In this document: piece by piece, positions 8,787 through 34,358 of the stretch
Layout of the letters: each line of letters begins with the position of its first letter
Numbering within the stretch: position 1 is the stretch's first letter
From: Gammaproteobacteria bacterium
Lineage (GTDB): Bacteria > Pseudomonadota > Gammaproteobacteria > Pseudomonadales > Azotimanducaceae
DNA length: 44,462 bases
Assembly: GCA_026707045.1 (NCBI GenBank)
Contig: JAPOXO010000113.1
Location: 1-44,462, forward strand
Reading direction: 5' to 3'
The notes under the pieces: generated by a model
The model's input: only the letters and a program-made list of their open reading frames with translations
Database searches by the model: none
Told to the model about the DNA's origin: nothing
Position numbers and translations under genes: made by a program

Positions 8787-10652
8787 CTAGTTTCGCCCTG
8801 TGTATTCATCCACTGCTTTGGCTTTCTCTTCGTCCCACCACCAGAGATGAACGTGACTGGTAATGCGATTGAGTGGCACAGGACTTGGTTGCCCGAACTT
8901 ATTCCAATACGCAATTCCAACTTTCTCTTTCGCCATGCCTGGTATGAAGTAGAAGTTCCACAACAGTACCCGATCAAGTGCCCGTATGGCAGCTGCGTAG
9001 GTGTCAAAATCCTCTGCTGTCTTAATTTTCTCGATCAAGTGATCTAGAGCAGGGTTTTCTATATTCGCCCAGTTAGAACCGTATTCGAGATCAACCAAAG
9101 CACTGTTAAAAGCGTTGTCGATAGTGGCAGTTGGAGTATTGTCTGGCAGGAACCAAATGGCTCCCCCATCAAAGTCACCAGCACGCATCCGATACAACCA
9201 GTTCGAAATTTCAGGTGATTTGATCGACGACGTTATTCCAACCCGCTCGAGGACTTGGGTGTAATGGATGAACGACCCTCCTAAAGCGGGAGATACTGCA
9301 ACGAAGCGTATATGGAAGTGTTCACCAGTCTCTGAATGGACAAGTTTGTTCTTCTTGACTACCCATCCTGCTTCTCTGAGCAGTCCTTGAGCTCTAACGA
9401 TAGTCTCCCGACTCCAACCGTCCCCTTGATTGGGAGGAGGTTGGTATGGTTCGGTGAACACGCGTGAGGGCACCAAATGACGAACTTCTTCGAGAAGCTC
9501 CAACTCCTTTCCTTCAGGCAATCCTTGGGACGCATACATTGGAGAACCGTGAAAGTAACTGGTAGCTAGGGAATAGAAATCGTAATTTCTCTTGTTTAGC
9601 CAAACAAAGTCATTGAGCAACCACAGGGCTTCGCGGACTCTTATGTCTTGAAAGCGTGGCTGTTCCAAGTTCCAGAAAATAGGCCACCAAAGTCCTGCTG
9701 GCCGCATTTGAGGTATATAGCTCTTCTTGAATAAGCCCCTGTGAAAGGGAGTGAAGTCGTACGCAGTTTCCCATAGACGAGGAATGTTCTCGACGTGGAC
9801 ATCAACCACATTTCCCTTCAACGACTCGGTTTGAACCTGATCGTCACGGAAATAGTCAAATTTGATTTTGTCGAAGTTGAAACGACCACGATTAATTGGA
9901 AGGTCAGCACCCCAGTAGTTTTCAACCCGTTCGAAGGCGACCCATTGCCCGACATAAAAGTCTGAAATCCTATATGGACCTGATCCTAGAGGTGGAGTTA
10001 CGGTAGTCTCAGTTATGTCCTCGGATACCCAATAGTGTTTTGGGAGCACTGGCAATACGCCAATTCGCATGGGCAGGAGAGGATTTGATCGTTCACTTTC
10101 GGTAATGTGATAACGGACCTCTCGGTCATTGAGCACTTCAATGTGAGTGAAGGGTTCTATTGGATTCTGAATTGAGGGATTGGATCGGTTTTTGTAGACA
10201 TCGAAACTAAATTCAAGATCTTCAACAGTAATCGGCTTGCCGTCATGCCAACGCGGTTGGGGATGTTGCCTTAAACGAAATCCAATCCACGCTTTGTTTG
10301 CCGGAATTGCAATTCCATCAGCAATGACGCCGTATATGGTTGAAATCTCATCTGCCGCGAAGTCCACAAGTGAATCGAGAAGCAGGTTGTCCGTTGGCGA
10401 GCCAACGGACAGTCCGGCGGCGACTCGTCCCCTTGGTGGAACGGGATTGAAGCTATCCCAATTGCCCATTTGCGGAATCCGAATCGTTCCACCCTTGGGC
10501 GCGTAAGGATTTACATATTTCAGATGCTGGAAGTCGGGAGCGTAGCTTGGCTCGGCAAGGAAAGCGTATCCATGTTTGTATTCAGTGGCACAAACGAAGC
10601 AAGCAAAAAAGGCACTAATTCCTGTCGCCCAGATTGAGTTGCGACGAGTCAT
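8787..10652 (-). CDS. yejA: YejA-type periplasmic peptide-binding protein
   Basis: A 621-residue extracellular solute-binding protein (family 5), close to YejA (about 604). I chose the ATG at 10652: it gives a hydrophobic secretion signal (MTRRNSIWATGISAFFACFV, residues 1-20) and a 19-base gap after the upstream gene, whereas the earlier GTG at 10739 would add 29 unlike residues overlapping that gene. Family features are the YVNPYAPKGGTIRIPQMGNW segment, typical of YejA, GKPITVEDLEFSFDVYKN, LGSGPYRISDF and LRRAL-type helices. It delivers ligand, probably a peptide or peptide-like compound, to YejBE. No clear lipobox. No obvious Shine-Dalgarno is seen before the ATG. Confidence 0.88.
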   Translation of the reverse strand: MTRRNSIWATGISAFFACFVCATEYKHGYAFLAEPSYAPDFQHLKYVNPYAPKGGTIRIPQMGNWDSFNPVPPRGRVAAGLSVGSPTDNLLLDSLVDFAADEISTIYGVIADGIAIPANKAWIGFRLRQHPQPRWHDGKPITVEDLEFSFDVYKNRSNPSIQNPIEPFTHIEVLNDREVRYHITESERSNPLLPMRIGVLPVLPKHYWVSEDITETTVTPPLGSGPYRISDFYVGQWVAFERVENYWGADLPINRGRFNFDKIKFDYFRDDQVQTESLKGNVVDVHVENIPRLWETAYDFTPFHRGLFKKSYIPQMRPAGLWWPIFWNLEQPRFQDIRVREALWLLNDFVWLNKRNYDFYSLATSYFHGSPMYASQGLPEGKELELLEEVRHLVPSRVFTEPYQPPPNQGDGWSRETIVRAQGLLREAGWVVKKNKLVHSETGEHFHIRFVAVSPALGGSFIHYTQVLERVGITSSIKSPEISNWLYRMRAGDFDGGAIWFLPDNTPTATIDNAFNSALVDLEYGSNWANIENPALDHLIEKIKTAEDFDTYAAAIRALDRVLLWNFYFIPGMAKEKVGIAYWNKFGQPSPVPLNRITSHVHLWWWDEEKAKAVDEYTGRN

Positions 10653-10671
10653 TAGTTGAAACCGAGCGAGT

Positions 10672-11676
10672 CTAGACTCTGTAGACCTTGGCGGCTGTGC
10701 CGAAGAACATTTGGTCTTTCTCGTCCTCCGTGAAGTCACTCACGATCTTTTTGAGTCCGTTCCAAAGAACGTGATACGAAATGGAGAGTCGATCTACGGG
10801 AAAATTACTTTCGAACATACATCGATCGGGTCCGAAGCACTCAATTGTGTGGAGGTAGTAGCGACGCTGGGCTTCGGCAAACTCATCGGATGTCGGGGGC
10901 GTGGGGTTCTTGTCCCAGCCGAATCCATTGTCAGGCATTGCCATGCCACCCAGCTTTGCGTGTACGTTTGGACATTGTGCAATGTCGGCGATATCTGCTT
11001 TCCATTGTTCAAAAATCTCTTCTCGACGCCCAGCGTAAGCACCTACACCGAGAGGTGTGCCAAAGTGGTCGAGAATCATGGTCGTTTCTGGTACCGCCTT
11101 TGCAAGTTCAAAATACTCTTGGTTCTGGTGGTAGAAATGCCATGTGTCGTACGTGTAGCCAAGCTGGCCTAATCTGCGAACTCCTGCCTGGAAGTCCGAT
11201 CGTGTGTAGGGGCAGGGCTGTCTGCTTCCTCGATTCGTTAGGGTTCCGGTTGTATCGTGGGGTCCGGCATGTCGAATTCCCCTAAACAGACCGTTGCCAG
11301 CCTCTTCATGTGCGTTCAATACTTCTTCCACACTGTCGCCGAGTGTCATATTTACATGTGAAACGATGGCAGCAATAGTTGCTTTTCCTTCTTCCTTTGC
11401 ACTCTCGGCTGCCACCTCTGCAACGAATTCCGTCTCCCCGATTGGACGCATATGCTCAGGTCCCTCGGTTCGATAGTTGGACCTGCAATCGATAAACACG
11501 GTCTTCTCTATGTTGTGACCGGATTCGGTATCGTTCCACAGGTCTTCGAGTACATATCGACCCCACATGGAAACGGATTCCCACAGATGGTGATGTGGGT
11601 CGACAATCCTTCGATCTGGGTCGATGATGTCTTCTCGTACCAGATCAAGCCATTCGTTGCTACCGGGTGTTGTCAC
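10672..11676 (-). CDS. Amidohydrolase-2 family metal-dependent hydrolase (TIM barrel)
   Basis: A 334-residue protein of the amidohydrolase-2 family, which contains lactone hydrolases, decarboxylases and amide hydrolases. The N-terminal metal motif is DPHHHLW at residues 26-32. Further barrel motifs are FRGIRHAG (about 130), TMILDHFGTPLG (about 203-214), VHAKLGGMAMPD (about 242-253) and FESNFPVD (about 303-310), all expected for this family. The start is GTG with GAGG about nine bases upstream. It is the first gene of the yejABE-CoA transferase-HDAC operon. The role could be hydrolysis of an imported lactone or amide; the exact reaction cannot be read from the sequence. Confidence 0.85.
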   Translation of the reverse strand: MTTPGSNEWLDLVREDIIDPDRRIVDPHHHLWESVSMWGRYVLEDLWNDTESGHNIEKTVFIDCRSNYRTEGPEHMRPIGETEFVAEVAAESAKEEGKATIAAIVSHVNMTLGDSVEEVLNAHEEAGNGLFRGIRHAGPHDTTGTLTNRGSRQPCPYTRSDFQAGVRRLGQLGYTYDTWHFYHQNQEYFELAKAVPETTMILDHFGTPLGVGAYAGRREEIFEQWKADIADIAQCPNVHAKLGGMAMPDNGFGWDKNPTPPTSDEFAEAQRRYYLHTIECFGPDRCMFESNFPVDRLSISYHVLWNGLKKIVSDFTEDEKDQMFFGTAAKVYRV

Positions 11677-12435: not shown

Positions 12436-13638
12436 GTGAATTCCAATAGTGAACTTCAAGGCATGCAAGTATTTGGAGACACCGACGTTGGGTGGTGTCC
12501 TAATACACCAATTAATGAAACATTGGATGAAGCAGGCAATGTAATAACCGATAAGAGGAGGCAGTTCGGTGTCGCTGATCCTCGTTCGCCTTCGAAACGC
12601 TTGTTCGATGACTACGAAGTCTGCAAGTTGCGGGAAAAACTGGAAAAGTTCAATGGTTATACCGGTTTAGACATCTGTGAACCACATGAAATCGAGAAGG
12701 CAAAGACGATTTTCTTTCGAGATGGTTTTGTCGTAGTAAACAATCTGCTCGACGAGGAGACTTTAGCTCGATTTCGAGAAGGGTCTGCGCGTGTGCTCAA
12801 GCAAATCCTCGAGCCGGACGGTCATGATGGCCGCAAGTACATTACGGAAACTTCTAGGCTGCCGCATCGGTACAGCTACGGAACTACGTCGGCTTCACGC
12901 CAAATGCTCCACGAGCAGGCGTGGGCATCTATGGTCGACCTGCCGACAACGACTCCTCTACTGACAGCTTTGTTTGGCAACAAAGACTACATGGTTTCTG
13001 GTGCTGGAGGCGACCTTTGCTTACCAGGTGCTGTCGAATATCAGCACTTGCACATGGACTTGCGCGAGTATCAAAACATACCTGAGTCCCGCCGAAAGCA
13101 AGCAGAAGAACTCGGCGTGAAGTTGCAGATGCGCGAAGGGACTGAGGAGTTAGAGCTCAAGACTCAGCGAGAAATCGTCGACCACACTCCTCCGATTATC
13201 ACGATCAATTTTGTGATGTGCGACCTGACTTGGGAAAACGGGCCCATAAGACAGATTCCGGGCAGTCATAAAGCAGTTAGACATCCACCTCCACCGTCCG
13301 AAGAACCGGAGTGGATGCGCATGTGCACCTTGGTAGGTGCTAAAGCCGGTGCAGGGGTATTCCGAGACAATCGTGCATGGCACGGCGCCACCCCGAATCT
13401 AAGCAGAGAGATTCGTTCGTTGCCTAACGTCGAATATGGTGCGCCGTGGATCGCCCGTGGTGGCAAGCCAACGATGCCATATGAGATTTGGGAGACTCTC
13501 TCGGACCATGCAAAACACATATGTCGGTTCGTTAAGGCCGATCCGGGAGTTTGGCCAGCTGGTGCTGGATTCAACCATTCTCTAGCGTCAGAGCGTAAGA
13601 GAGTCAAGGAAGAAGCAATAGCAAAAGCGGCCGGCTGA
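12436..13638 (+). CDS. Phytanoyl-CoA dioxygenase (PhyH) family Fe(II)/2-oxoglutarate oxygenase
   Basis: A 400-residue protein with the PhyH double-stranded beta-helix, in a family that hydroxylates acyl-CoAs, ectoine, halogenated or secondary-metabolite substrates using Fe(II), O2 and 2-oxoglutarate. Metal ligands seen are the H-x-D pair in QHLHMDLREY (His206, Asp208) and the distal His316 in NRAWHGATPN, with Arg-rich residues after it for 2-oxoglutarate. GPIRQIPGSHK at about 269-279 is typical of the family. I chose the GTG at 12436 because GGGAGGG lies eight bases upstream; an upstream TTG lacks such a site and an ATG at 12463 is also possible. It is the first gene of a nine-gene plus-strand run. 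Substrate unknown. Confidence 0.82.
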   Translation: MNSNSELQGMQVFGDTDVGWCPNTPINETLDEAGNVITDKRRQFGVADPRSPSKRLFDDYEVCKLREKLEKFNGYTGLDICEPHEIEKAKTIFFRDGFVVVNNLLDEETLARFREGSARVLKQILEPDGHDGRKYITETSRLPHRYSYGTTSASRQMLHEQAWASMVDLPTTTPLLTALFGNKDYMVSGAGGDLCLPGAVEYQHLHMDLREYQNIPESRRKQAEELGVKLQMREGTEELELKTQREIVDHTPPIITINFVMCDLTWENGPIRQIPGSHKAVRHPPPPSEEPEWMRMCTLVGAKAGAGVFRDNRAWHGATPNLSREIRSLPNVEYGAPWIARGGKPTMPYEIWETLSDHAKHICRFVKADPGVWPAGAGFNHSLASERKRVKEEAIAKAAG

Positions 13639-13753
13639 CGAGCAAAATACCCTAATTCCCGACTCATTGTGCGGATTTATCGCTCTGCACATTACTCAAA
13701 CTGGCTTCTATGCAAAATGGCGTGCACTTTGTGATTGCCTATTGGAGGGATCT

Positions 13754-14554
13754 ATGAGCGAGCCAGCAGTTTTGTTCGATGTCTCGGACAAAGTACTGAC
13801 AATCACTCTCAACAATCCGTCGAAACTCAATCCCATTGCAGACAACATGTCGTTTCCTGCAATAGGCCGACTCGGAGATGCTGTTCGAGATCCAAATATA
13901 GGTGCAATAGTCTTGACGGGCGCGGGTCGGGCCTTTTGTGCAGGGGGCGACGTCAGCAATATGGGAGGTACCGACCCTAATGGCGAGCCGCTCACTTTTG
14001 AACAATCAGTGGATCGACAAAGAGAGCGACATCTGTTTCCTTACCTTCTTCACACCATTCCCAAAGTCACGATTGCAGCGGTAAATGGACACGCGGTTGG
14101 TGCAGGCTTAGGAATTGCCGCTTCCTGCGACTTGCGAATTTCTTCGACAAAGGGCAAGTTTGGTACAGCATTTGCTAATGTGGGGCTGGGTGGAGACTTC
14201 GGAACCACTTGGCAACTAACTCGCTTGCTTGGAGAGTCCAAAGCCAAGGAGCTCTTCTTCCTGCCTGACATTATCGATGCTCAGGAAGCGTTGCGCATTG
14301 GACTCGTAAATAGAGTGTTGCCTGACGAGTCTTTTGCTGATGGCGTACACGAAATTGCAGCTCGCATTGCTAAGGGACCGCTTGTTAGCTACCGCTGGAT
14401 GAAGCAGAACATCAATCAGTCGTCAATTTCAGACTTCATGACGATGTTGGAGAAGGAGGCGGTGACCCATCTCCGTTGTGCCCAATCCAATGATCACAAA
14501 GAGGGTGTGTCAGCTTTCATGGAGAAGCGAGCCGCTAATTTCTCCGGTACCTGA
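13754..14554 (+). CDS. Crotonase (enoyl-CoA hydratase/isomerase) family protein with non-hydratase active site
   Basis: A 266-residue crotonase-fold enzyme. The ATG at 13754 is preceded by GGAGGGA three bases upstream and starts the conserved MSEPAVLFDVSDKVLTITLN; a longer frame upstream is not family-like. The first oxyanion-hole segment GRAFCAGGDVSNM and the second, VNGHAVGAGLGIAASCDLRI, are present. The two glutamates of true enoyl-CoA hydratases are replaced (Gly in GAGLGIA; Phe in FGTAFANVG), while GLGGDFGTTWQLTRLLG places an Asp where PaaG-type isomerases have one. This fits an enoyl-CoA isomerase or related reaction better than hydration. It lies 115 bases after the PhyH gene and overlaps the MoxR gene. 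Confidence 0.83.
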   Translation: MSEPAVLFDVSDKVLTITLNNPSKLNPIADNMSFPAIGRLGDAVRDPNIGAIVLTGAGRAFCAGGDVSNMGGTDPNGEPLTFEQSVDRQRERHLFPYLLHTIPKVTIAAVNGHAVGAGLGIAASCDLRISSTKGKFGTAFANVGLGGDFGTTWQLTRLLGESKAKELFFLPDIIDAQEALRIGLVNRVLPDESFADGVHEIAARIAKGPLVSYRWMKQNINQSSISDFMTMLEKEAVTHLRCAQSNDHKEGVSAFMEKRAANFSGT

Positions 14555-15563
14555 GCAATTTCAATCTCACATTGGTAACAAACAAGAAATATCGATTCCG
14601 ACAAGCACGGACGCGAATACTTTGACCGAAATTCAAAAACTGGCCGAATCTGTTGACTCGTTGAAACAGAGTTTTGAGGATCACAGCTACATCTGCAGCA
14701 ATCAGATAGCAACAGCTGTCTATCTTGCGTACCACTTACGCAAGCCCGTGCTGATCGAAGGTCCTCCAGGAGTTGGAAAGACCGAACTTGCGAAGACAAC
14801 GGCGGATATGTTCCAACTACCATTGATCAGGTTGCAGTGCTACGAAGGATTGGACGAAGCAAAGGCGATATACGAATGGAAATACGGCAAGCAACTTCTC
14901 TATACACAAGTTCTCAAGGAGACTCTCGACGAAGTGCTTCAGGGAGCACAAGGGTTTGCGGAATCGGTCAATCGATTGCATGAATTTGGCGACATCTTTT
15001 TCTCGCAAGAATTCATGGAACCTCGACCCCTACTTAAGGCGTTGCAAGAGGAAGATGGTTGTGTCCTGTTAATCGATGAGGTAGACAAGTCAGATCACGA
15101 GTTTGAGTCGCTACTTCTTGAGATCCTGTCCGACTTTCAAGTTTCAATACCCGAAATTGGGACTGTCAAAGCTCGTCGCGAGCCGCCCATGGTGTTTCTG
15201 ACTAGTAATAACACTCGCGAGATCTCAGATGCACTGAAGCGCAGGTGCTTGCATCTCTACATTCCGTTCCCTGATATGGATCTGGAGCAACGAATCATTC
15301 ATGCCCGAGTACCAGAAATTCCGGAGTTGCTCCGCAAGCAACTGGTGGCGTTCATCCAAGAGCTTCGCGACATGGACTTGAAGAAAGTCCCTGCAATCAG
15401 CGAAACCATTGATTGGGCAAGAACACTGCTGCTGCTTCACACGGAATCGCTCGACCCCGATCTTGTTCGAGAAACGCTAAACGTGATTTTGAAATTTCAG
15501 GAAGATATTGACAACATCAACACTGATATTCCGTCCATCACTAACAAAGCGGTCAACGCTTGA
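14490..15563 (+). CDS. MoxR-family AAA+ ATPase
   Basis: A MoxR-type AAA+ ATPase of about 357 residues (usual 300-350); these work with VWA proteins as chaperones that mature enzymes or insert metals. Seen are Walker A LIEGPPGVGKTE (about residues 88-99), Walker B CVLLIDEVDKSD (about 191-202), sensor-1 FLTSNNTREISDALKRRCLH (about 236-255) with the Arg finger pair, and PALIS-type SETIDWARTLL near the C-terminus. The start is uncertain: ATG at 14490 overlaps the crotonase gene by 65 bases; GTG at 14478, GTG at 14505 and TTG at 14622 are alternatives, and family similarity begins only near residue 50. The VWA partner follows after 26 bases. Confidence 0.87.
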   Translation: MITKRVCQLSWRSEPLISPVPEQFQSHIGNKQEISIPTSTDANTLTEIQKLAESVDSLKQSFEDHSYICSNQIATAVYLAYHLRKPVLIEGPPGVGKTELAKTTADMFQLPLIRLQCYEGLDEAKAIYEWKYGKQLLYTQVLKETLDEVLQGAQGFAESVNRLHEFGDIFFSQEFMEPRPLLKALQEEDGCVLLIDEVDKSDHEFESLLLEILSDFQVSIPEIGTVKARREPPMVFLTSNNTREISDALKRRCLHLYIPFPDMDLEQRIIHARVPEIPELLRKQLVAFIQELRDMDLKKVPAISETIDWARTLLLLHTESLDPDLVRETLNVILKFQEDIDNINTDIPSITNKAVNA

Positions 15564-15589
15564 AAGAGAGTGTGTGAGAAGTAGGGAGT

Positions 15590-17068
15590 ATGGATCGCAC
15601 ACTTACTAGTTTTATAGCGGCACTTCGAACGGCGGAAGTCCGAATATCTCCCGCCGAAACATTGGATGCTTTGAGTGCTGTAGAACTTACTGGATATCAC
15701 GATCGCGAATTTCTGAAGAACACATTGGCTTTGGTTCTTCCCAAGACGATTGATGAAAAGGAAACTTTCGACAACACCTTTGAGGAATTCTTCAAGTTCA
15801 ACGACATAACTGGTCAACGGAAGACCGACTCCGAAGCGGATGAATCCGACCAGGATTCGGAAAATTCGGGAGAAGGTACAGGCCAGAGCCAAGGTTTAGG
15901 AGCAAATCGGGGAGGTCGATCTTCAAAAGCCGGAGCAGAGGAAGCAGGTGTTATCGACGACGAGGATTCCACTGAGAACCTTGGTCCAGGTCCGCTTGCT
16001 GAACCTTCCTCAGCGTTGGGTGTACTGCTGATGCAGAACGACCGAATTGAACTCAACGTTCAAGTCGCAGGCGCCGCGAAAGTGGTAAAGCTCGAAGACA
16101 TTCAAGTATTCACTCAAAAGGGACTCTACACGCGGCGGATTCTCGAAGAAATGGGGCTTGCCGAGCTACAACGAGAAATCAATTCGGCAAGGACAAGTGA
16201 AGATCTTCCGGTGAGGAGGTTGGGTCGAGAACTAAAACATCGACAGGATTGGTTGCGAGAGCAAGTAAGAGACTATGTCGAAAAGCAATTCTTGCTCTAT
16301 GCAGACGCACACGGGTTCCGCCTAAGGGAAGAACTCCTCCGCAAGGTCAAGCTCTCCAACATCGAACATCGTAACTTTAGACTGGTACAGGAAATTGTGT
16401 ATCGCATGGCGAAGAAGCTCGTCGCATTGCATTCACGCCGGAAGAAGGTGTACAAGCGAGGGGTGCTCAATGTCTCACGTACTCTACGAAAAAACATGAG
16501 CTACGACGGCAACATTTTTGACCTACATTGGAAATCCATAAAGGTTGACCGCCCGTGTGTTTACGCGATTTGCGATGTAAGTGGCTCGGTATCAAACTAT
16601 GCGAGATTCATGCTGATGTTCCTATACAGCCTCGAGGAAGTCATGCCGAAAGTGCGCTCTTTTGCATTTTCTTCAGATCTCGGAGAAGTTACAGAGCTCT
16701 TCGAACGGAACTCTCTCGAGGACGCCATTGCAAAGACATTGCGAGACTATGGAGGAGGCTCCACTGACTACGGTCAAGCGTTGATAGACTTTCGAAAGAA
16801 GTGTCTGTCAGACATTGACAATCGAACCACCGTCATCATTCTCGGAGATGCTCGAAACAACTACGGAGAAGCTCACCAACAAGTTTTGAAAGAGCTCTAC
16901 GAAGTGTCCAAAAGAGTGATTTGGCTAAATCCTGAATCGCGCAGTACATGGAACACTGGAGACGCTATCATGAGGAAGTACACGCCCTATGTGCATCAAG
17001 CAGAAGAATGTAATTCTCTCATTCACTTGGAGCGCGTCGTGGGCAACTTGCTTCGGACTGTCCAGTAG
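15590..17068 (+). CDS. VWA domain protein, CoxE-like partner of MoxR
   Basis: A 492-residue cytoplasmic protein. The N-terminal ~70 residues are helical; residues 78-130 are a Ser/Glu/Gly-rich linker (for example ENSGEGTGQSQGLGANRGGR at 91-110), and a helical middle section leads to a C-terminal von Willebrand A domain. The MIDAS metal site is complete: Asp329, Ser331 and Ser333 in DVSGSVS, Thr392 in GGGSTDYG, and Asp420 in ILGDARNN. CoxE-like VWA proteins partner with MoxR ATPases in enzyme maturation (CoxD/CoxE act on carbon monoxide dehydrogenase). The gene sits between moxR and the Opp-type importer, eight bases before the next gene. Its client is unknown. Confidence 0.87.
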   Translation: MDRTLTSFIAALRTAEVRISPAETLDALSAVELTGYHDREFLKNTLALVLPKTIDEKETFDNTFEEFFKFNDITGQRKTDSEADESDQDSENSGEGTGQSQGLGANRGGRSSKAGAEEAGVIDDEDSTENLGPGPLAEPSSALGVLLMQNDRIELNVQVAGAAKVVKLEDIQVFTQKGLYTRRILEEMGLAELQREINSARTSEDLPVRRLGRELKHRQDWLREQVRDYVEKQFLLYADAHGFRLREELLRKVKLSNIEHRNFRLVQEIVYRMAKKLVALHSRRKKVYKRGVLNVSRTLRKNMSYDGNIFDLHWKSIKVDRPCVYAICDVSGSVSNYARFMLMFLYSLEEVMPKVRSFAFSSDLGEVTELFERNSLEDAIAKTLRDYGGGSTDYGQALIDFRKKCLSDIDNRTTVIILGDARNNYGEAHQQVLKELYEVSKRVIWLNPESRSTWNTGDAIMRKYTPYVHQAEECNSLIHLERVVGNLLRTVQ

Positions 17069-17076
17069 AGGTCACT

Positions 17077-18783
17077 ATGGCTGACGCTATCCAAGGAACA
17101 ACCGCACCGGTAAACGTCAGTTCAGCTTGGCAACTCACCAAGTACGGTCTCATTGGACTTTTGTTCTTCATCCTACTTCTTGCCGCATTGGGATGGATTA
17201 CTTCCAACTCGGCTGCCAGCACGAGATCTTCTCAAGCTGTAGATTTCGCGACCAATACAGTCACGTTGGCGTTAAGCACTGAACCTCCTCAGCTTGACTC
17301 AACCCGAGCAACTGACATGGTTTCTGGAATGTTGCTCGGTCACACGATGGAAGGGTTACTTCGCTACGGACCCAACAATGAACTCATTCCGGGAATGGCC
17401 GAGTCATGGGATATTCATGAGAATGGCGGGACATTTCATCTACGACAGGATGCGCTTTGGAGCAATGGGTCTCCCGTAACGGCGCATGACTTTGTCTTCG
17501 CGTGGAAGACAGCGCTAGATCCCGACACCGGTTCGCAATACGCATTCATTTTGTTCCCTATTAAAAATGCACGAGGCATTAGCGAAGGCGAAATGGATCC
17601 CGAAACGTTGGGAACCAAGGCAATTGACGACTTTACTCTCGAGGTGGAGTTGGAACAGCCCACCGCTTATTTTCTAAAGTTGCTTGCATTCCCCACTTAC
17701 TACCCGATCAATGAATCGTTCTATCTGTCGACTGACGGCGGCTATGGATCGGAAGCTGAAAATCTTATCTACAACGGACCGTTCAAGATTGTGAAATGGG
17801 TACACGATGCGAGCCTTCGGCTGGAGAAAAATGAAGTCTATTGGAATCGGGATGCTACAAAACTCGATGCTATTGACTATGCATACATCCTGTCGGATGC
17901 CAACGCTACTTTGAATCTATTTGCGACCAACAAGATCGCTCTCGCGGGACTGAATTCCGAAAATCTGGAACGCGCGTTAAAGAATCGCTGGCGCATCAAG
18001 CAGCACAATGACGGGTCTGTGTTTTTTCTCGAGATTAATCACCGACCTGATCGCATCACCGCCAACTATAACTTGCGTAGGGCACTTCAGCTAGTGCACA
18101 ACCCGTCGGAATTGGTCTACAAAGTCCTGAAACTTCCTGGAAATCTTCCTGGCGAGTCAATCTTCCCGGTCTGGCTCAATGGCGTTGATGGTCTCTTTCG
18201 AGACGAGTACCCGGGACCGAAGTACATTGTCAACGAAGAGAAGGCACGCGAACACCTTGCAATGGCACTAGAGGAGCTTGGTGTTGACGAGCTTCCACCC
18301 CTAGTGCTTTTGGCGGGCGACAACCCTGTTTCAAACAAGCAGTCGGAGTACTACCAGCGATTGTGGAAGGAAAAGCTTGGCATCGAGGTCAAGATCGACA
18401 AGCAAATCTTCAAGCTCCGTTTGGAAAAAATGACTACTGGCGAATTCGATATTGTTGCCGCTGGCTGGGGCCCCGACTACCACGATGTAATGACATTTGG
18501 CGACTTGTTCGCTTCGTGGAATCTAAACAATCGCGGGCGCTATGCCAACGAGGAGGTAGATCGCCACGTTGCGATCGCGCAAAGTTCTAGCGATCCTGTA
18601 GAACGAATGGAAGCAATGGATAGAGTGCAGCAGCTCCTGCACGACGACGTGGCAATTCTCATCCAGTACGAACGGGGAAGCGTCTACGTTTCAGACGATC
18701 GTGTAAAGGGAGTCACTCGTCGAGCCGTCGGCTTAGACCCCGATTACACGCGTGCGTACATCGCGAGGGACAGTGAAGGCTAA
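17077..18783 (+). CDS. Oligopeptide/dipeptide-type ABC transporter substrate-binding protein
   Basis: A 568-residue family 5 solute-binding protein close in layout to OppA/MppA. Visible are TVTLALSTEPPQLDSTRATD (about residues 61-80), VSGMLLGHTMEGLLRYGPNN, GSPVTAHDFVFAWKTALDP and NGPFKIVKWVHDASLRLEKN, all OppA-like. The N-terminus is odd: about 22 polar residues precede a hydrophobic segment (residues 23-43, YGLIGLLFFILLLAALGWIT) with no lipobox cysteine, so it may be an uncleaved membrane anchor. The ATG start has AGAGG five bases upstream, overlapping the end of the VWA gene. It is followed by four importer genes in order. Ligand probably a peptide or small amide; not determinable. Confidence 0.88.
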   Translation: MADAIQGTTAPVNVSSAWQLTKYGLIGLLFFILLLAALGWITSNSAASTRSSQAVDFATNTVTLALSTEPPQLDSTRATDMVSGMLLGHTMEGLLRYGPNNELIPGMAESWDIHENGGTFHLRQDALWSNGSPVTAHDFVFAWKTALDPDTGSQYAFILFPIKNARGISEGEMDPETLGTKAIDDFTLEVELEQPTAYFLKLLAFPTYYPINESFYLSTDGGYGSEAENLIYNGPFKIVKWVHDASLRLEKNEVYWNRDATKLDAIDYAYILSDANATLNLFATNKIALAGLNSENLERALKNRWRIKQHNDGSVFFLEINHRPDRITANYNLRRALQLVHNPSELVYKVLKLPGNLPGESIFPVWLNGVDGLFRDEYPGPKYIVNEEKAREHLAMALEELGVDELPPLVLLAGDNPVSNKQSEYYQRLWKEKLGIEVKIDKQIFKLRLEKMTTGEFDIVAAGWGPDYHDVMTFGDLFASWNLNNRGRYANEEVDRHVAIAQSSSDPVERMEAMDRVQQLLHDDVAILIQYERGSVYVSDDRVKGVTRRAVGLDPDYTRAYIARDSEG

Positions 18784-18789
18784 CAAGCG

Positions 18790-19722
18790 ATGATCCGATA
18801 TGTTCTCTGGCGGCTTCTTCAGGGAGTCATCACTGTCTGGTTCATTGCAACCGTGACATTCTTTGTGATGCACAACCTTCCGGGCGATCCTCTTGCGGAC
18901 GACAAGGCAGTTTCGGAAAAGATTCGAGAAAACCTCGAAGCAAAGTTGGGGTTGGACAAGCCTGTTGTTCAACAGTACTTCATCTATATGCGAAACATGG
19001 TGGGTGGCGACTTTGGACTGTCATTCGTTCACGAGAATCGAAGAGTAAATGAGATCATTCGTGATCATTTTCCCGTGTCAGCCATTCTTGGGATTCTCGC
19101 CATTGTTATTGCTGGATTCGGTGGGATTCTCTGGGGTGCCTTAACTGCGCTGTATCGAAACCGCTGGCCGGACATAGCCATCATTTTGTTGGTCATATTA
19201 GGAATCTCAGTTCCCTCATTTGTGTTTGCCACGGTTGGACAACTTGCACTTGTCACAATCAACAACTTAGCAGGATTCGAAGTCTTGCCGGTGGCAGGGT
19301 GGGGCACCGTGGCGCACATGTTGATTCCAGCGTTGGTTTTGGGGCTTGGAACCATGGCGTTTCTAACACGTCTCATGCGGACATCGATGCTGGAGATTGT
19401 GTCATCCGACTTTGTACGCACGGCAAAAGCGAAGGGCGTACCGATGGCGCAAATCTTCTCCAGGCATCAGCTTAGAAATGCTGTTCTCCCAGTTGTCACC
19501 GTATTGGGTCCCTCGATTGCAGGGATAACTACGGGTGGATTCGTGGTGGAGAACGTATTTGGAATACCTGGACTTGGCCGCTATTTTGTACTTGCCGTGC
19601 AGCAGAACGATTATGGTGTGATTATGGGAACCACGGTCTTCTACGGTGCGTTTCTTGTATTGATGGTCATTCTCGTAGACATTCTTTACGCGGTCATCGA
19701 TCCTAGGGTACGCCTCGAATGA
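18790..19722 (+). CDS. oppB: OppB/DppB-type ABC transporter permease
   Basis: A 310-residue inner-membrane permease with about six membrane segments. It begins MIRYVLWRLLQGVITVWFIA, followed by FFVMHNLPGDPLADDKAVSE, both hallmarks of OppB/DppB. The EAA loop that docks on the ATPases is FVRTAKAKGVPMAQIFSRHQ (about residues 211-230), and FVVENVFGIPGLGRYFVLAV follows as in the family. Start lies six bases after the binding-protein stop; its own stop overlaps the next start by four bases. Confidence 0.92.
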   Translation: MIRYVLWRLLQGVITVWFIATVTFFVMHNLPGDPLADDKAVSEKIRENLEAKLGLDKPVVQQYFIYMRNMVGGDFGLSFVHENRRVNEIIRDHFPVSAILGILAIVIAGFGGILWGALTALYRNRWPDIAIILLVILGISVPSFVFATVGQLALVTINNLAGFEVLPVAGWGTVAHMLIPALVLGLGTMAFLTRLMRTSMLEIVSSDFVRTAKAKGVPMAQIFSRHQLRNAVLPVVTVLGPSIAGITTGGFVVENVFGIPGLGRYFVLAVQQNDYGVIMGTTVFYGAFLVLMVILVDILYAVIDPRVRLE

Positions 19723-21092
19723 GTGATCTTTCTTTCAAACCTATCTCGCTCGCTGCAGACGTCGAGGAACGTTCACGTCCGTCACTCTCCTACTGGCAGG
19801 ATGCGTGGATTCGATTGCGTGCCAATAAACGGGCATTTGCATCGCTATTTGTGATTATTGGGATGTTGGTGTTTGCATGTGCCGGTCCCCTGGTTTGGCA
19901 CATTGATCCAGACGCACAGGACTTGGATCAGACATCTAAACCTCCTTGGGGCGATCGGAATGCGTTGGTACAAAGTTACGAACCATGGGCAGGCGTGACG
20001 TCCGCGGAACCGCAAGGCAACAATTTGTCACCCGAATCACTTGAAGTTGTGGGTGATGCCACTACGACCTTTGTTCGTTTAGTTTGGGACCCAGTTCCCA
20101 ATTCGAATGGCTATCGCATTTACCGACAAATCGTTGAACCGCGAGTAGGGGATCCTCTAGGTTTGCCGATAGGCGACACGAAAGGAGCTACGTCTGTGAG
20201 TTTCGAAGATCGCCTTGATATCAAACCCAAGTCATATTGGTACTCAGTGGTAGCAGTGAATGAACAAGGTGAAGAATTTCCCGAGGCAGCGACTCTGAAG
20301 GTGGATGTCGCGTTTTCCACAACGATTGCCAATGCCGTTGAGCGGGGATATATAGAGGACGAGAATTCCGTCGCCATCGGGGACACGATCAAGGTCCCAC
20401 TTCATCCCTTGGGCACCGACTATCTTGGGCGCGACATGTTGTCTCGTCTAATGGAGGGAGCGCGGATTTCGTTGTTTATAGGAATCGTTGCACCTTTCCT
20501 GTTTGTAATTGCGGGTGTCATATACGGAAGTTTCGCAGGATTCATAGGCGGGAACTTTGATCATGTCTTGATGCGCTTTGCAGATTTCGTGATCGCACTG
20601 CCATTCCTTTTGTTCATGATTCTGTTCAAGCTCCTGTTCGGAATAGGGCCAGGAGAAAGTGGGATTCTGCCCATGTTGGTAGCACTGGTCGTGCTCAGTT
20701 GGCCTGGAGCGGCACGACTCGTTCGTGGCGAGATTCTGCAAATCCGGGAGGAAGGCTATGTTGAGGCCTCGCGACTTTTGGGCACGAAGACGCCCCGTTT
20801 GATTCTTCGACACATGATTCCCAACACAATGGGCGTGGTTCTCGTGACATTTACTTTCGCTGTGCCCAGTGCGATTTTTACTGAAGCGTTTCTTTCCTTC
20901 ATCGGTATGGGAGTAACCGCACCTACAGCATCGTGGGGTTCAATGTGCAACGATGGCATCAAGACAATGGAGACTACCCCCCACGAACTGATCTTCCCGG
21001 CATTGTTCATAAGTATCACAGTGCTAGCTTTCAATTTCTTGGGCGATGGATTGCGTGATGCATTGGACGCTCGCATGCGGTATGGAGAGTAG
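19719..21092 (+). CDS. oppC: OppC/DppC-type ABC transporter permease with inserted fibronectin-III-like domain
   Basis: A 457-residue permease, about 150 residues longer than usual OppC (about 300). The N-terminal helix (about 40-60) is followed by a periplasmic loop carrying an extra domain at about residues 105-197: VRLVWDPVPNSNGYRIYRQI and PKSYWYSVVAVNEQGEEFPE have the Trp, Tyr and strand pattern of a fibronectin type III fold. The normal sequence resumes at HPLGTDYLGRDMLSRLMEGA (about 229-248). The EAA loop is GYVEASRLLGTKTPRLILRH and the C-terminus has EAFLSFIGMGVTAPTASWGS. It starts by a four-base overlap with oppB. The domain probably faces the periplasm near the binding protein; its role is unknown. 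Confidence 0.88.
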   Translation: MSDLSFKPISLAADVEERSRPSLSYWQDAWIRLRANKRAFASLFVIIGMLVFACAGPLVWHIDPDAQDLDQTSKPPWGDRNALVQSYEPWAGVTSAEPQGNNLSPESLEVVGDATTTFVRLVWDPVPNSNGYRIYRQIVEPRVGDPLGLPIGDTKGATSVSFEDRLDIKPKSYWYSVVAVNEQGEEFPEAATLKVDVAFSTTIANAVERGYIEDENSVAIGDTIKVPLHPLGTDYLGRDMLSRLMEGARISLFIGIVAPFLFVIAGVIYGSFAGFIGGNFDHVLMRFADFVIALPFLLFMILFKLLFGIGPGESGILPMLVALVVLSWPGAARLVRGEILQIREEGYVEASRLLGTKTPRLILRHMIPNTMGVVLVTFTFAVPSAIFTEAFLSFIGMGVTAPTASWGSMCNDGIKTMETTPHELIFPALFISITVLAFNFLGDGLRDALDARMRYGE

Positions 21093-21094
21093 GC

Positions 21095-22099
21095 GTGGCG
21101 CTACTTGAAGTCACGGATCTCCACGTGGAGTTCACTACCTATGGCGGAATCGTCCATGCGGTTCGGGGCGCTAGCTTTTCAGTCGAGCGAGGCGAGACCC
21201 TAGCAATCGTCGGAGAATCCGGTTGTGGAAAGTCGGTTTCCGTACAAAGCATCATGGGCCTGATCCCAATACCCCCCGGTCGAATCACTCAAGGAACTGC
21301 GACTCTCGACGGACACGACATCTTGCAAAGCCGAGTAATCGACGGCAAGGACATTCGAGGAAGCAAAGTGGGGATGATTTTTCAGGATCCCATGACATCG
21401 CTGAATCCCACAATGTCGATTGGGGCTCAAATTGCCGAACCTTTAAGAGTTCATAACGGTATGTCGCGAGGAGCAGCCATGAAAAGGGCTGTGGAACTCC
21501 TTGATCTGACTCGTATTCCGGAAGCGAAGAAGAGATCTCGTCAATATCCATTCGAGTTTTCTGGAGGCATGCTTCAGCGAGCAATGATTGCAATGGCTCT
21601 CGCATGTGAACCGGCTGTTCTCATTGCCGATGAACCGACAACCGCACTGGATGTGACTATTCAAGCCCAGATTTTGGACCTGGTTCACGACCTACAGCGA
21701 GAAAACGGCATGGCCTTGATCTTGATCACACATGACTTGGGCATCGTGGCACGAATGGCGAATCAAGTAGTTGTCATGTATGCAGGGGAAGTTCTGGAGT
21801 CAGGTACGGTGGATGAAATTTTTTATAAGTCTGCACATCCCTACACAATAGGGCTGACTGCCGCAATGCCAACGAACCGTCGCGAGGTCCAGCAAAGTTT
21901 GATGCCAATTCCAGGCACGCCACCGGACTTGTTCTCTCCACCTGAGGGATGTGGTTACGCCGCGCGGTGTCCGTATGCCATGGAGGTTTGTGTTTCGAAT
22001 CGTCCGGAAATTTTCGATGTATCGGCATCCCATGGCTCCCGCTGTTGGTTGCACCATGAAGACTGTTCGGTTGAAGTAGCCGAGATTTCCACGGCATGA
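21095..22099 (+). CDS. oppD: OppD/DppD-type ABC transporter ATPase
   Basis: A 334-residue ATPase that powers the OppB/C permeases. Walker A is GESGCGKS at residues 40-47, Q-loop near FQDPMTSLNP (about 96-105), signature FSGGMLQR at 155-162, Walker B VLIADE at 175-180, and H-loop ILITHDLG. The C-terminal oligopeptide domain holds GCGYAARCPYAMEVC and a later CWLHH, the four-Cys pattern seen in Opp/Dpp ATPases that can bind an iron-sulfur cluster. The start is GTG, two bases after the oppC stop. Its stop overlaps the next start. Confidence 0.93.
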   Translation: MALLEVTDLHVEFTTYGGIVHAVRGASFSVERGETLAIVGESGCGKSVSVQSIMGLIPIPPGRITQGTATLDGHDILQSRVIDGKDIRGSKVGMIFQDPMTSLNPTMSIGAQIAEPLRVHNGMSRGAAMKRAVELLDLTRIPEAKKRSRQYPFEFSGGMLQRAMIAMALACEPAVLIADEPTTALDVTIQAQILDLVHDLQRENGMALILITHDLGIVARMANQVVVMYAGEVLESGTVDEIFYKSAHPYTIGLTAAMPTNRREVQQSLMPIPGTPPDLFSPPEGCGYAARCPYAMEVCVSNRPEIFDVSASHGSRCWLHHEDCSVEVAEISTA

Positions 22100-23109
22100 G
22101 TAGCCCACTCGTAACGGTTGAGAGACTAACCAAGCATTTTCGAATTGGTCGCAATCAGACTGTGCATGCAGTTGACTCTGTTTCCTTGGATATCAATGAA
22201 CGGGAAATTGTTGGATTGGTTGGCGAGAGCGGATCGGGGAAGTCTACGTTGGGCAAAACGATGATTGGCTTGCATCACAAGACACATGGTCGTGTGATTT
22301 TCGATGGGGAGCAACTTCCGCAAGACTACTCCGCAAGTGACTTTCAGAAATATGCGCATCGAATGCAGATGATCTTTCAGGATCCCTACTCTTCACTCAA
22401 TCCCCGAATGACTGTCGGAGAAATTGTAGGTGAGGGGCTGCGTTTACATACATCACAGTCGATGAGCGAAATTCGTGACGCGACTGCCGAATGGTTGGAA
22501 CGCGTTGGGTTGAACGCCGATCACATGGCCCGCTATCCTCATGAGTTCTCCGGAGGTCAACGCCAACGCATCGGTATTGCTAGAGCTTTGATCTTGGATC
22601 CAGATTTCGTCGTTTGCGACGAGCCGATTTCGGCTTTGGACGTATCCGTTCAAGCCCAGGTTGTGAACTTGCTGGGAGAGCTCAAGGATTCGCTCGGTTT
22701 GACATTGTTGTTTATAGCTCACGACCTTTCAATGGTTCGATACGTTTCAGATCGAATTGCAGTCATGTATCTGGGTGCATTGATTGAGATTGGGCCCGCA
22801 GACGAGGTTTTCTTCACTCCGAAGCATCCCTATACGCAGCTATTGGTGGAATCCAATCCGGAACCAGACCCCGAACACGAGAGAGTTCGTGAATCCACTC
22901 GGATTCAAGGCGAGATTCCATCACCTGTAAACATCCCACCGGGCTGTCGCTTCTCAGATCGTTGCCCATTTGTGATGGACAAGTGCCGCCACGAAACTCC
23001 AGAACTGTTGAAAATCAGCGAGGAAGCGGTAGATCGGCATGTCGCCTGTCACTTATTCGGTGAAGACTTGACCAGCTCAGATTTGGCAGAAAATCAGGCC
23101 TCTGCTTGA
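22096..23109 (+). CDS. oppF: OppF/DppF-type ABC transporter ATPase
   Basis: A 337-residue second ATPase of the importer. Walker A GESGSGKST is at residues 43-51, Q-loop FQDPYSSLNPR at about 95-105, signature FSGGQRQRIGIARAL near 154-168, Walker B FVVCDEPISALD, H-loop FIAHDLSMVRY. The C-terminus has GCRFSDRCPFVMDKC and VACHLF, again the Opp/Dpp four-Cys pattern. It starts with an ATGA overlap of oppD and ends the plus-strand run. OppD and OppF together form the ATPase heterodimer; they might also serve the YejBE permeases nearby, which lack an ATPase. Confidence 0.93.
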   Translation: MSSPLVTVERLTKHFRIGRNQTVHAVDSVSLDINEREIVGLVGESGSGKSTLGKTMIGLHHKTHGRVIFDGEQLPQDYSASDFQKYAHRMQMIFQDPYSSLNPRMTVGEIVGEGLRLHTSQSMSEIRDATAEWLERVGLNADHMARYPHEFSGGQRQRIGIARALILDPDFVVCDEPISALDVSVQAQVVNLLGELKDSLGLTLLFIAHDLSMVRYVSDRIAVMYLGALIEIGPADEVFFTPKHPYTQLLVESNPEPDPEHERVRESTRIQGEIPSPVNIPPGCRFSDRCPFVMDKCRHETPELLKISEEAVDRHVACHLFGEDLTSSDLAENQASA

Positions 23110-23496: not shown

Positions 23497-26400
23497 CTAG
23501 TTGGTGTCGTCTCCGCCGGCCCGAGTCCATCGAATTGCATCGGCATAGACATAACCAAATCCGAGCTTGCTACGAACTTCTACCAGATCAACAGTGACCG
23601 TCCCTTTGTTCAACGAAAACTCCCCAATTTCCCTCCAGCCGTGAGGGTTTTCGTCGTAGGTAAACTCCGCTTGCCATTCATTCTTCCCATCTTCTATGGC
23701 AAAGCTGTATACGATCTCAGGTCTATAACCAAGCTGTATTGCTGGTAAGTGATACTCGAGCTTCCAAGTTGAGGAGTCAGGTATTTCGGCGGCAAATCTG
23801 ACTTCTGGATTAGTTTTGTGGATTAGTAACTGTGCTGTTGTCCTACGAAAGGCACCATAAGCACTAGAGAATTGTGTTCTAGCCCAAACGCCTTGTTCAG
23901 AGAAGGTTCTATTCCAGGCTGGAAGACCAGCATCTAGATCGAGCTGGAAGAGCGTACTACCTCGAAACCATTTCGCAGGTCCGATTGAGATGGGTCGATC
24001 GAGGTTGGGGTTGGTCTGAAACACTTGGAACCCCTGGTCGAGATCATCGACGATGATCTCGTTGCTGTGGGAGACCCAATTGCTTTCCTCTATGAACGGA
24101 GGAACTTGTTGAATTGCCTTGTGATCTTCAGGTTCCAACTCGACTGCAACACGAAGGGGGATTCTATTAAGAGAAAGATAGGGATTAATGCGAACTGCCT
24201 TCACCTGATACGGAGTCAGCAAATTTATCCTCTTTGCAGACAGTCCATTTATCAAAACAGTATTGCTTCTTCGCCAAAACGGTGCAATCCAATCTTTTGT
24301 GTCTTCCGTAGGATAGTCAATATGGACAATTCCCGTAGTCTGGGTGACGTTTCTGACATCAACTGAGGTCAGCCATCGAGGATTGCCACCCTCAGCATCC
24401 TCGATTCTGAGGGTCGATGCATTCGATGCTATGAATCCCGGCAAGTCTGAGGTGTCAAGCCATTTTGTTAGAAATGGCTCGACCACTACACCGCGTGTTC
24501 GAGCGCTCTCTAGTAAATCTTCAAGTACGTAGTTCCTACCAGCAAATTGATCTCGAAAGTCGTCCAGCCAATCCGCCACCGCACTGGTGTCGTTTGCCAT
24601 CAGTAAGGCTAGTGCGATCTGCTGACACTTAAGTTGCAAGAGCTCTAGGTCATATTGAAGACCATTGGTTGTAGGGAGATCAGAAAGTGGGGTGTCTTCC
24701 ACGCTGCTCCAAACGCTTGCTCGATGGGTGTATTCTCCAGAGGCCTGATAAGTACCAAAGACATACCTTCGGTCAAAGTAACCACTGTCTGCAGCCCACG
24801 CAATGGGTTCCAAATTGAGTGTAGTTATGTCGGCAATAAAAAAGGTCGAGTAGATTGAGGAATAGCTGAACTCAAGCTCAAACATAGTTGCAATTAGCGA
24901 CCGGATCACCTGATCTAAAGCTTGAGCGTGTGCTCCACGTGCTGAGGTGGAATGTGACCAAAAGCGTTCAGGCAGACTGAGTGCAACATTTTCCGATTCA
25001 AACTCTCCTTCAAAGAACATGACCAACACACTTCTTAGGTGTTGAGCCAGTTCATCCTCATGCTCAGCAAAGCCGGACACTCTATCCATTGCGGTTTTTA
25101 GTTGGGATCGCGGGAATCCGTGCTCTTTCATCAATACAACACCCGGAAGCAAGTTCGCAGAGTTCATTCGCCACCCACCGGCTGTTGTGCGAAGTCTGCG
25201 TGGGACTTCCACTAGTGCAAGATCGCGGTGCGCGATTGAAATACCTTTGCTAGTAAAACCTTGAACCAGATCCTCGAATTGCTCGAACAGCGCTTGATTT
25301 TCGATTTGAGAGAGTAGATTCAGGTTCTTTGCATGAAGCTTGTGTAGATGAATTGAGCTATTGATTCCACCAATTTCAACCTCAACACTTTCAAATTCCG
25401 AAGCAAATAAGCCCAACTCGTGTACAGGATTCGTAGGACGAACGATGAATCTTCGAAGTGTGCTCGATTCGTCCAGTTTCGAGCCATGTGCTACAAGGCT
25501 CCATTTTTGAGGAGTGAGCTGGACGTTGAGACTGACCTGAAAGTAGTCCCGACCCTGCTGCAATGACCTGTAGTCACCGTTCACCGGTCCCGGCGTGGGA
25601 TACCAATGAACGCCTGGCATCAGCGCCACATATCTGTTTGTGAACACCGATGCGTCAGTTCCGAGCAAAGAGGAGGCAACAATGGGTACTTCGGAACTAT
25701 TTTGGTAGTCAACCGCGCTATCAAAATATGCGAATCGATGATTAGGAACACCGTCTGCGCGAATCCGAAGTGAATATTCTGGACTCCCATCTGATGGTTC
25801 AGGTTGATCAATTCTCAACAGTCCATCCTCAAATGTAAAGTCCGCAGGAATCTCATTGAGTTCGATTTGACGGACTTTCATCGATGGATTGAAAGAGAAG
25901 ACAAGAGGCTTGGAATCCAGATCCTCTATAGCCAACTTTATAACAAGATCGATGTCCAGGAGTTGTCCCGGATCGATGATCACATCGCCCGATAGCTCTT
26001 TGAAATCTATATGGCCGACCCATTTGACTGCTTGATGGGCCTGCTGCCACTTGCTCGACTGATGAAAGGGAGCTTGAGCACCGGCGAAGGCTACCGAATA
26101 GAGGCACCCGAATGAGAGCACTGCGCCACCTGCTGCCAAAATGCTGAAAGATGTCGCAATGCCATCTCTTCGTTTATGCAGCAGGGTAGCGGTGACAATG
26201 AAGCCAATCGCTCCAAAAAGCGTAGCGATTCTCACCACCACTGTCTCCCATTTTGGAAACTGAGGCAACAAGTCAGAAATGAACAAAACGTCATTGGATG
26301 ATGGTGAGACGATCGCGCGAAGTGAATAGGGCACTTCCACGGCCACAAAAAACCATACAGACATTGCGAGAATTCCAATGGCAACTACAAAGATGCGGAC

Positions 26401-33184: not shown

Positions 33185-33194
33185 TGGAATGGAT

Positions 33195-34193: not shown

Positions 34194-34358
34194 TCGAGTC
34201 CTATAGTTAGCGCCAGAGCTCACCAGCTAATGAACTACTGTTGGCTTTGACCGTAGTTTGACGAGGTGTAATTTTACGAATGACTCTCGGACAGACTTAG
34301 CAAGAGTCCTATGTTTATGCTAGGTGCAAGTATTCGTATGTTTAGGGAATAACGCGAT

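Follow-up and report, generated by a model that had tools for sequence, protein, structure and literature searches.

The nine-gene region at positions 12436-23109 of the analysed DNA (the window, 44,462 nt in full) was found to consist of two units that differ in age, and not of one. MoxR-VWA-OppABCDF is an older, family-wide core unit, and a PhyH oxygenase and a crotonase are a genus-level addition in front of it. Our preferred reading, to which we assign a probability of about 0.5, is a two-part operon in which the MoxR-VWA pair of the old core would act in a NorQD-like manner on a client in peptide uptake or use, the PhyH and crotonase genes having been added later.

All nine genes lie on the + strand, in one direction and tightly packed, and a Pfam scan agreed with the families that the initial annotation had named for them. 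The outer boundaries also stand, as the GTG at 12436 that begins the PhyH gene aligned with the starts adopted for two relatives (L079 and L078) and the oppF stop is at 23109. Two adopted starts depart from those of the longest ORFs. For the crotonase, ATG 13754, with GGAGGG located 5' of the codon, is the most likely start, and MoxR most likely begins at TTG 14622, where ATG, GTG or TTG occurs in 34 of the 41 relatives printed; the crotonase/MoxR overlap is therefore probably not real. With the revised starts, the intergenic gaps are, in order, 115, 67, 26, 8, 6, -4, 2 and -4 nt. Thus, gaps of at most 115 bases were described correctly (the largest separates PhyH and crotonase), whereas of the "several" start/stop overlaps only two, oppB/oppC and oppD/oppF, proved to be true. 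On the + strand, no promoter-like match was detected 3' of the PhyH start (one match ends at 12437), both terminator-like matches were located within genes, and the totals of such matches were no higher than in shuffled sequence. We infer a single transcript for the region. Structural genes of CO dehydrogenase, methanol dehydrogenase or nitric oxide reductase, which had been reported as missing, were likewise not evident when the window's ORFs of at least 150 aa were read by eye.

The first two genes code for a PhyH-family oxygenase of the Fe(II)/2-oxoglutarate type (12436..13638; Pfam PhyH, 7.8e-13) and a crotonase-fold acyl-CoA enzyme, PaaG/isomerase-like (13754..14554; Pfam ECH_1, 5.6e-53). 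The HxD...H pattern is present in the window's PhyH protein: candidate ligands H206-x-D208 and H316, which we take to bind iron, were invariant together with R327 in all 7 aligned sequences, and the PDB relatives of this protein were weak only. As to the crotonase, each of the 4 PDB relatives displayed, none of which is a canonical hydratase, has an Asp aligned with D148. Canonical enoyl-CoA hydratases use two catalytic Glu residues.

The initial annotation had suggested that the nine genes could be one uptake-and-degradation pathway whose oxygenase or transporter is serviced, for example by metallation of the oxygenase, by MoxR-VWA. The tight co-directional packing would fit this idea, and L078 and L079 share the complete gene order, as does L094, there with two PhyH genes. 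However, PhyH was not found upstream of the module in 53 of the 59 named family loci with sufficient upstream sequence (the window aside). The 6 loci that had it all belong to the window's genus, PhyH and crotonase being placed immediately 5' of MoxR in 3 of the 59, and PhyH homologues at 55-64% in 10 genomes of other genera occurred in varied contexts. The neighbourhood check for scattering was thus answered differently for the two parts, as PhyH and crotonase are scattered across loci and the MoxR-VWA-Opp block is kept together. Because of this difference, servicing of PhyH by the pair is disfavoured, and a single nine-gene pathway was rejected as highly improbable.

The third and fourth genes encode a MoxR-type AAA+ ATPase (14622..15563; AAA_5, 1e-13; start placed by comparison with relatives) and its VWA-domain partner of the CoxE type (15590..17068; VWA_CoxE, 2.7e-33, domain score 115.7 bits against a cut-off of 26.4). 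The residues that we assign to the Walker A, Walker B and sensor motifs of MoxR were invariant in 14 rows, and the MIDAS of the VWA protein (D329-x-S331-x-S333, T392 and D420) was invariant in 29 rows. The window therefore contains what defines a MoxR-VWA chaperone pair, a Walker A/B ATPase adjoining a VWA protein with intact MIDAS. Among solved folds, the VWA model (pTM 0.48) best matched a NorQD-complex chain that is presumably NorD, and this match was modest (E 4.2e-6, TMq 0.32, TMt 0.58); neither the VWA protein nor its alignment yielded a match when searched by sequence against the PDB. Where sequence sufficed, MoxR adjoins VWA in 67 of 73 named family loci, the others being L085, L091, L092, L093, L130 and L156. 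Moreover, no MoxR match was detected in any of the 7 genomes examined that lost VWA, so MoxR and VWA travel together. We know of no client for most MoxR-VWA pairs.

The remaining genes are oppA, for an oligopeptide-binding protein (17077..18783; SBP_bac_5, 1.9e-69), the permease genes oppB (18790..19722; BPD_transp_1 and BPD_transp_1_N) and oppC (19719..21092; BPD_transp_1 and OppC_N), and the ATPase genes oppD (21095..22099) and oppF (22096..23109), both with ABC_tran and oligo_HPY. By domains, the set is complete: SBP_bac_5, two BPD_transp_1 and two ABC_tran/oligo_HPY proteins. Its predicted substrate, judged from domains and relatives, is oligopeptides. Oligopeptide-binding proteins were among the best PDB relatives of OppA, and no NCBIfam oligopeptide-importer cut-off was reached by OppA, OppB or OppC. 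OppC contains an FN3-like insert of ~155 aa (19944-20408), which was modelled with pLDDT 91.5 and whose Foldseek matches were mostly FN3 domains; a Pfam scan of the insert found nothing. From the inferred topology, we expect the insert to lie in the periplasm.

The family consists of uncultured marine and sponge bacteria. A standard Opp importer was present at the MoxR-VWA locus in 69 of 80 evaluable family loci, in some of which the contig ends after oppA and only this gene is visible, and it was no more than 600 nt from VWA in 63. Another oligopeptide importer was found in 6 loci, and 5 had none. The median gap between VWA and oppA was 28 nt, and 40 of 55 standard loci had a gap of 50 nt or less. 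The 83 family rows leave out 10 loci of other families and 4 Steroidobacter relatives; also excluded was L068, which is a second, diverged copy within the family genome G046. Loci L038-L057, largely from the same genomes as L078-L157, were not used in the family-row count, and the 98-row tree has long outgroup branches.

Parsimony on the VWA tree gave 3 neighbour changes at the VWA-Opp junction across 44 loci, compared with 16 upstream of MoxR and 21 downstream of oppF, and across 70 loci 28 changes upstream of MoxR versus 10 downstream of VWA; these counts, from one tree and our own conservation-rule ORF calls, are approximate because the simple rule misread some high-GC loci. Singleton genes were scored as their own state at all three junctions, and L142, in which an ORF artefact makes VWA its own neighbour, was counted as a change. 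Co-directional replacement importers were scored as no change because their OppA shares the standard cluster. The VWA-Opp junction is more durable than its surroundings, and the union of MoxR-VWA with a full oligopeptide importer, noted initially in the window, is conserved.

Additional evidence came from loci in which the importer was exchanged. In L101, L109, L121 and L138, a non-orthologous importer is located 17-23 nt past VWA (measured from longest-ORF starts), whereas close relatives keep the standard one. The replacement importers of L108 and L156 are oriented convergently to VWA, which excludes co-transcription of importer and VWA there. A single clade for the exchanged loci was rejected (AU p 1.4e-6, in a test run after a quick tree had been viewed and with the group defined by importer type), and the importer was swapped in place more than once. 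L101, L109 and L121 may represent one exchange because the fork there is weak, so five changes may be four. The NCBIfam scan covered the replacement importers of L101 and L156, for which Opp models ranked first at scores under the cut-off, several ATPase models excepted; those of L108, L109, L121 and L138 were assigned through 74-94% OppA identity to the L101 OppA. The standard long OppC was not seen in any of the six exchanged genomes, and its absence from these genomes, G097-G102, and from G104 is provisional because all are drafts of unstated completeness. Since the exchanged genomes showed no long OppC, the replacement OppC of L101 has 295 aa and the FN3-like insert is expected to be periplasmic, we rejected this insert as the main client of the pair. 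MoxR itself was relocated in one clade formed by L085, L091, L092, L093 and L130, which points to one separation event. VWA stays by Opp in this clade, and MoxR is 9 kb off in L085, on another contig in L091 and far off on the chromosome in L092 and L093.

It is possible, although in our view not probable, that this is synteny without function, i.e., that the pair chaperones some other client and that the adjoining locus is an importer-exchange site, used through recombination between conserved flanks. In L101, L109 and L156, the downstream NUDIX, ABM, CobT and CobS genes were retained despite the exchange, and two exchanges placed the importer on the opposite strand. Opp also survives loss of the pair, being kept without MoxR or VWA in 7 genomes of the same genus, and the pair outlives loss or relocation of Opp in L062, L063, L098, L134 and L136; in G030 and G104, the pair is present but the standard Opp is not. 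Against this reading are the VWA-Opp junction, which changes far less than both outer junctions, the co-directional replacements 17-23 nt past VWA, and the clade in which VWA remains with Opp where MoxR had moved. Among 52 family genomes, pair and importer presence were not significantly associated (Fisher p 0.29). This result, together with the survival of Opp without the pair, led us to reject strict co-dependence, and the link is not obligatory.

Outside the family, OppA, OppB and OppC matches near VWA were absent from all 26 loci, as they were from 4 diverged second-copy loci inside it. The moxR-vwa relative of cultured Peristeroidobacter (L149 and L150) does not adjoin Opp either. In 4 of the 26 loci outside the family (L067, L070, L071 and L077), moaA and/or a molybdopterin oxidoreductase occurred near VWA. 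One report (PMC4240915) describes CoxD and CoxE as acting on the Mo-Cu cluster of CO dehydrogenase, and the pair might similarly mature a molybdoenzyme. In 36 genomes of the order's other families, the oxidoreductase (E < 1e-140) was present in 8 of 11 with VWA and 9 of 25 without (Fisher p 0.07). However, no close relative of the moaA-linked oxidoreductase was found in the window's genus (best E 6.7e-32), whether or not the pair was present, and co-occurrence within the genus was unsupported. Xanthine-oxidase-type Mo enzymes fared no better as a partner, as all 61 family genomes examined, pair-less ones among them, had such enzymes, and moaA homologues, present in 91 of 97 genomes, were useless as a marker. 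A molybdoenzyme client thus appears improbable.

Returning to the preferred reading, a MoxR AAA+ ATPase and a VWA adaptor would be encoded with a complete oligopeptide importer throughout the family, and the PhyH and PaaG-like crotonase placed before them in one genus would lie outside the core function. By analogy, the MoxR ring would drive the VWA protein, most likely as in NorQ-NorD, and the latter may dock its client via the MIDAS and then remodel or metallate it. We infer that the client most likely takes part in the uptake or use of peptides, being either the Opp complex generally or a cytosolic metalloprotein needed during peptide import; the pair would aid the importer and not be essential to it. 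Retention of the pair beside the importer even after importer swaps suggests an unrecognised link between a chaperone and peptide uptake. A more specific proposal, which we consider unlikely, is that ABC importers can be among the clients of MoxR-VWA machines, VWA being an importer-facing adaptor for assembly, activation or gating. This would explain why VWA stayed with Opp despite MoxR relocation and replacement by non-orthologous importers. The presence of the pair beside a peptide importer family-wide, through more than one in-place exchange, provides a concrete client hypothesis, and if it is true, MoxR-VWA machines extend from cofactor insertion to transport.

Several known systems may be compared with this locus. 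NorQ-NorD, which serves Fe_B insertion into nitric oxide reductase, shares the combination of a MoxR AAA+ protein and a VWA protein with MIDAS and, in a modest match, offers the nearest solved fold to the window's VWA model, but the window pair adjoins a peptide importer and no nor structural genes (norB/norC) were seen by eye in the window's ORF list. CoxD-CoxE has in common the VWA_CoxE Pfam domain and an AAA+ partner, and some relatives of the window pair are beside Mo-cofactor genes, but coxMSL were not seen by eye in the same list. MadB_ATPase and MadC were the best NCBIfam matches of MoxR (302.1 bits) and VWA (122.8 bits), but these scores are far under the curated cut-offs (475 and 600, respectively), and we found no literature on MadB/MadC as a MoxR-VWA pair. 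Separately, NF047782 is a beta-lactamase model. CobS-CobT of cobaltochelatase is likewise a MoxR-VWA pair and occurs in the window at 31370-34223; CobS_N and CobT/CobT_C domains are absent from the studied pair, whereas both are found in this other one. Finally, OppABCDF importers share the full five-gene set, and the window OppA is nearest to solved peptide-binding proteins, but here OppC has an FN3-like insert, OppA-C remain under the NCBIfam cut-offs and MoxR-VWA is located in front.

A gene-neighbourhood check of the nine-gene set, which the initial annotation had described as one operon that could serve a dedicated uptake and degradation pathway, showed that MoxR-VWA-Opp holds family-wide, whereas the PhyH oxygenase and crotonase genes are separate from it. 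We compared the nine proteins by tblastn with 80 named loci (four Steroidobacter relatives and 76 others, 59 of which extend at least 3.6 kb upstream of the VWA gene). Not counting the window, PhyH was found upstream in six of these 59 loci (L078, L079, L082, L083, L086 and L094), and PhyH plus crotonase stood directly before MoxR in three (L078, L079 and L094). PhyH homologues (55–64%) were also present in 10 genomes of other genera, in varied contexts. When the family was considered as 83 rows (the window, the 76 named loci and six unnamed ones), the standard OppABCDF importer lay within 600 nt of the VWA gene in 63 and farther off in six; another six had a different importer, five had none, and in three the sequence ended too early. 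Thus, MoxR-VWA-OppABCDF is a family-wide arrangement, and the nine genes are two units of different age.

The physical description of the array was confirmed by a Pfam scan: the nine genes occupy 12436-23109, all on the plus strand, and belong to the families named initially. Two starts were corrected, that of crotonase to ATG 13754 and that of MoxR to TTG 14622, a position at which 34 of 41 relatives displayed carry a start codon, and the gaps in gene order are then 115, 67, 26, 8, 6, −4, 2 and −4 nt. Scanning the array revealed no plus-strand promoter-like match 3' of the PhyH start and two plus-strand terminator-like matches, both within genes; neither class of match was more numerous than in shuffled sequence. 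This signal scan is consistent with, but short of proof for, a single transcript of the nine genes. The window (contig C73) belongs to a draft genome of 3.34 Mb. Uncultured Gammaproteobacteria and Pseudomonadales are its nearest named relatives, and several of these bear the title K189A clade and one HTCC2089; judging by isolate names, several of them are presumably sponge bins.

Regarding the two enzymes in front of the block, PhyH retains candidate iron ligands. Because D148 of the crotonase occupies the position of the Asp in its closest solved relatives, the enzyme more likely catalyses an isomerisation like that of PaaG, which is one of the relatives, than a plain hydration.

Neighbor changes were counted on a VWA tree. 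A set of 70 loci required at least 28 changes of the gene before MoxR and 10 of the gene after VWA. In the 44 loci with all three junctions, there were 16 changes upstream of MoxR, 21 downstream of oppF and three at VWA-Opp, a swap to another co-directional OppA being scored as no change. The VWA-oppA gap had a median of 28 nt; of 55 standard loci, 40 had a gap no longer than 50 nt. S-adenosylhomocysteine hydrolase and acyl-CoA thioesterase genes were frequent upstream of the block, and NUDIX, ABM, CobT and CobS genes downstream. A second MoxR-VWA pair, CobS-CobT (Pfam CobS_N, CobT and CobT_C), is located at 31370-34223, ~8 kb downstream in the window, and CobT follows Opp in many family loci.

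In six loci, a different oligopeptide importer was found at the same site, with OppA 28–30% identical to that of the window and OppD and OppF fused. It follows VWA by 17–23 nt on the same strand in L101, L109, L121 and L138; in L108 an importer of this type is convergent with VWA, and so is the importer of L156, which belongs to a second type (about 38% to the other). The standard long OppC was not detected in these six genomes, which are drafts of unstated completeness. On a 30-row MoxR+VWA tree, a single clade for the four co-directional exchanges was rejected (AU p 1.4e-6), and five importer changes were required, or four if L101, L109 and L121 count as one. The importer has been swapped in place. 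Of the two pair members, VWA is the one retained beside the importer: L085, L091, L092 and L093, which form one clade, still have VWA before Opp, and their MoxR is found 9 kb away, on a different contig or at a distant chromosomal site. In L130 of the same clade, the contig stops directly after VWA, and MoxR had no match in the available sequence of the genome.

Several observations argue against a dedicated link between pair and importer. Seven same-genus genomes (92–96% complete) keep the standard Opp and lack both VWA and MoxR matches, and two genomes (G030 and G104) keep the pair and lack the standard Opp. Among 52 family genomes (at least 90% complete, at most 5% contaminated), 43 had both, one the pair alone, seven Opp alone and one neither (Fisher p 0.29). 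In seven same-genus genomes of 2.5–2.8 Mb (L158-L164), OppABCDF adjoins a histone-deacetylase-like gene (window 4610-5521), as would result from removal of the whole stretch from there to oppA.

Of 369 genomes sampled across the class, only 11, including that of the window, had a VWA match (E <= 1e-60). Gene surroundings were compared at 30 loci. Of these, 26 lie outside the family: 10 in other Pseudomonadales families, four in Steroidobacter relatives and 12 in 10 further genomes of the class. The other four are diverged second copies within the family (L068 and L074-L076). None of the 30 had a match to OppA, OppB or OppC; ABC ATPase matches (27–33% to OppD or OppF) were within reach in several, and in the Steroidobacter relatives such a match adjoins a betaine-type transporter gene. 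Four of the 26 outside loci (L067, L070, L071 and L077) have moaA and/or a molybdopterin oxidoreductase close by. In 36 genomes from other families of the order, this oxidoreductase occurred in 8 of 11 with the VWA protein versus 9 of 25 without (p 0.07), a co-occurrence that is suggestive only and fails in the genus of the window. The diverged second VWA genes of L074-L076 (34–40% identity) lie near a histidine kinase and a response regulator, and a related kinase/regulator pair is upstream of MoxR-VWA in L062 and L063. A record titled Klebsiella pneumoniae (L146) carries the family's MoxR-VWA-Opp block and groups among family rows, which suggests a mislabelled metagenome bin.

OppC of the window contains an insert of ~155 aa (19944-20408), modeled with confidence as a fibronectin type III (FN3)-like domain (pLDDT 91.5; Foldseek matches mostly FN3). 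Over 53 rows, the insert has a mean identity to the window of 0.41, lower than the 0.73 of the core. OppC matches (E < 1e-100) also occurred elsewhere in the order, in nine of 36 other families. In a literature search on OppC and FN3, the ten papers listed of 188 partial matches did not mention FN3. Elsewhere in the window, an SBP_bac_5 protein and two permeases are encoded on the minus strand (5537-10739), with an amidohydrolase before them and a class III CoA-transferase after them; no adjoining ATPase gene was seen. A 1147-aa protein (23497-26940), which ends in a Golvesin domain and resembles ABC-2 membrane proteins weakly, had no clustered relatives among the compared loci.

The Walker A, Walker B and sensor residues of MoxR are invariant (14 aligned rows), as is the VWA MIDAS (D329-x-S-x-S, T392 and D420; 29 rows). 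The best structural match of the VWA model (mean pLDDT 75, pTM 0.48) was a chain of the NorQD complex, presumably NorD. Among the papers listed, titles and abstract openings yielded no report of MoxR-VWA with an oligopeptide or ABC transporter; the search covered few subscription journals and does not prove absence from print. In NorQD, a VWA-domain finger inserts into the MoxR pore; the proposal is that the ATPase then twists and stretches a linker of NorD, permitting metal insertion (PMC13036017). By analogy, the pair might dock on and remodel its client via the MIDAS, and conservation points to a client tied to peptide uptake or use. Besides NorQD, the other close analogue of the pair is CoxD/CoxE (PMC4240915).
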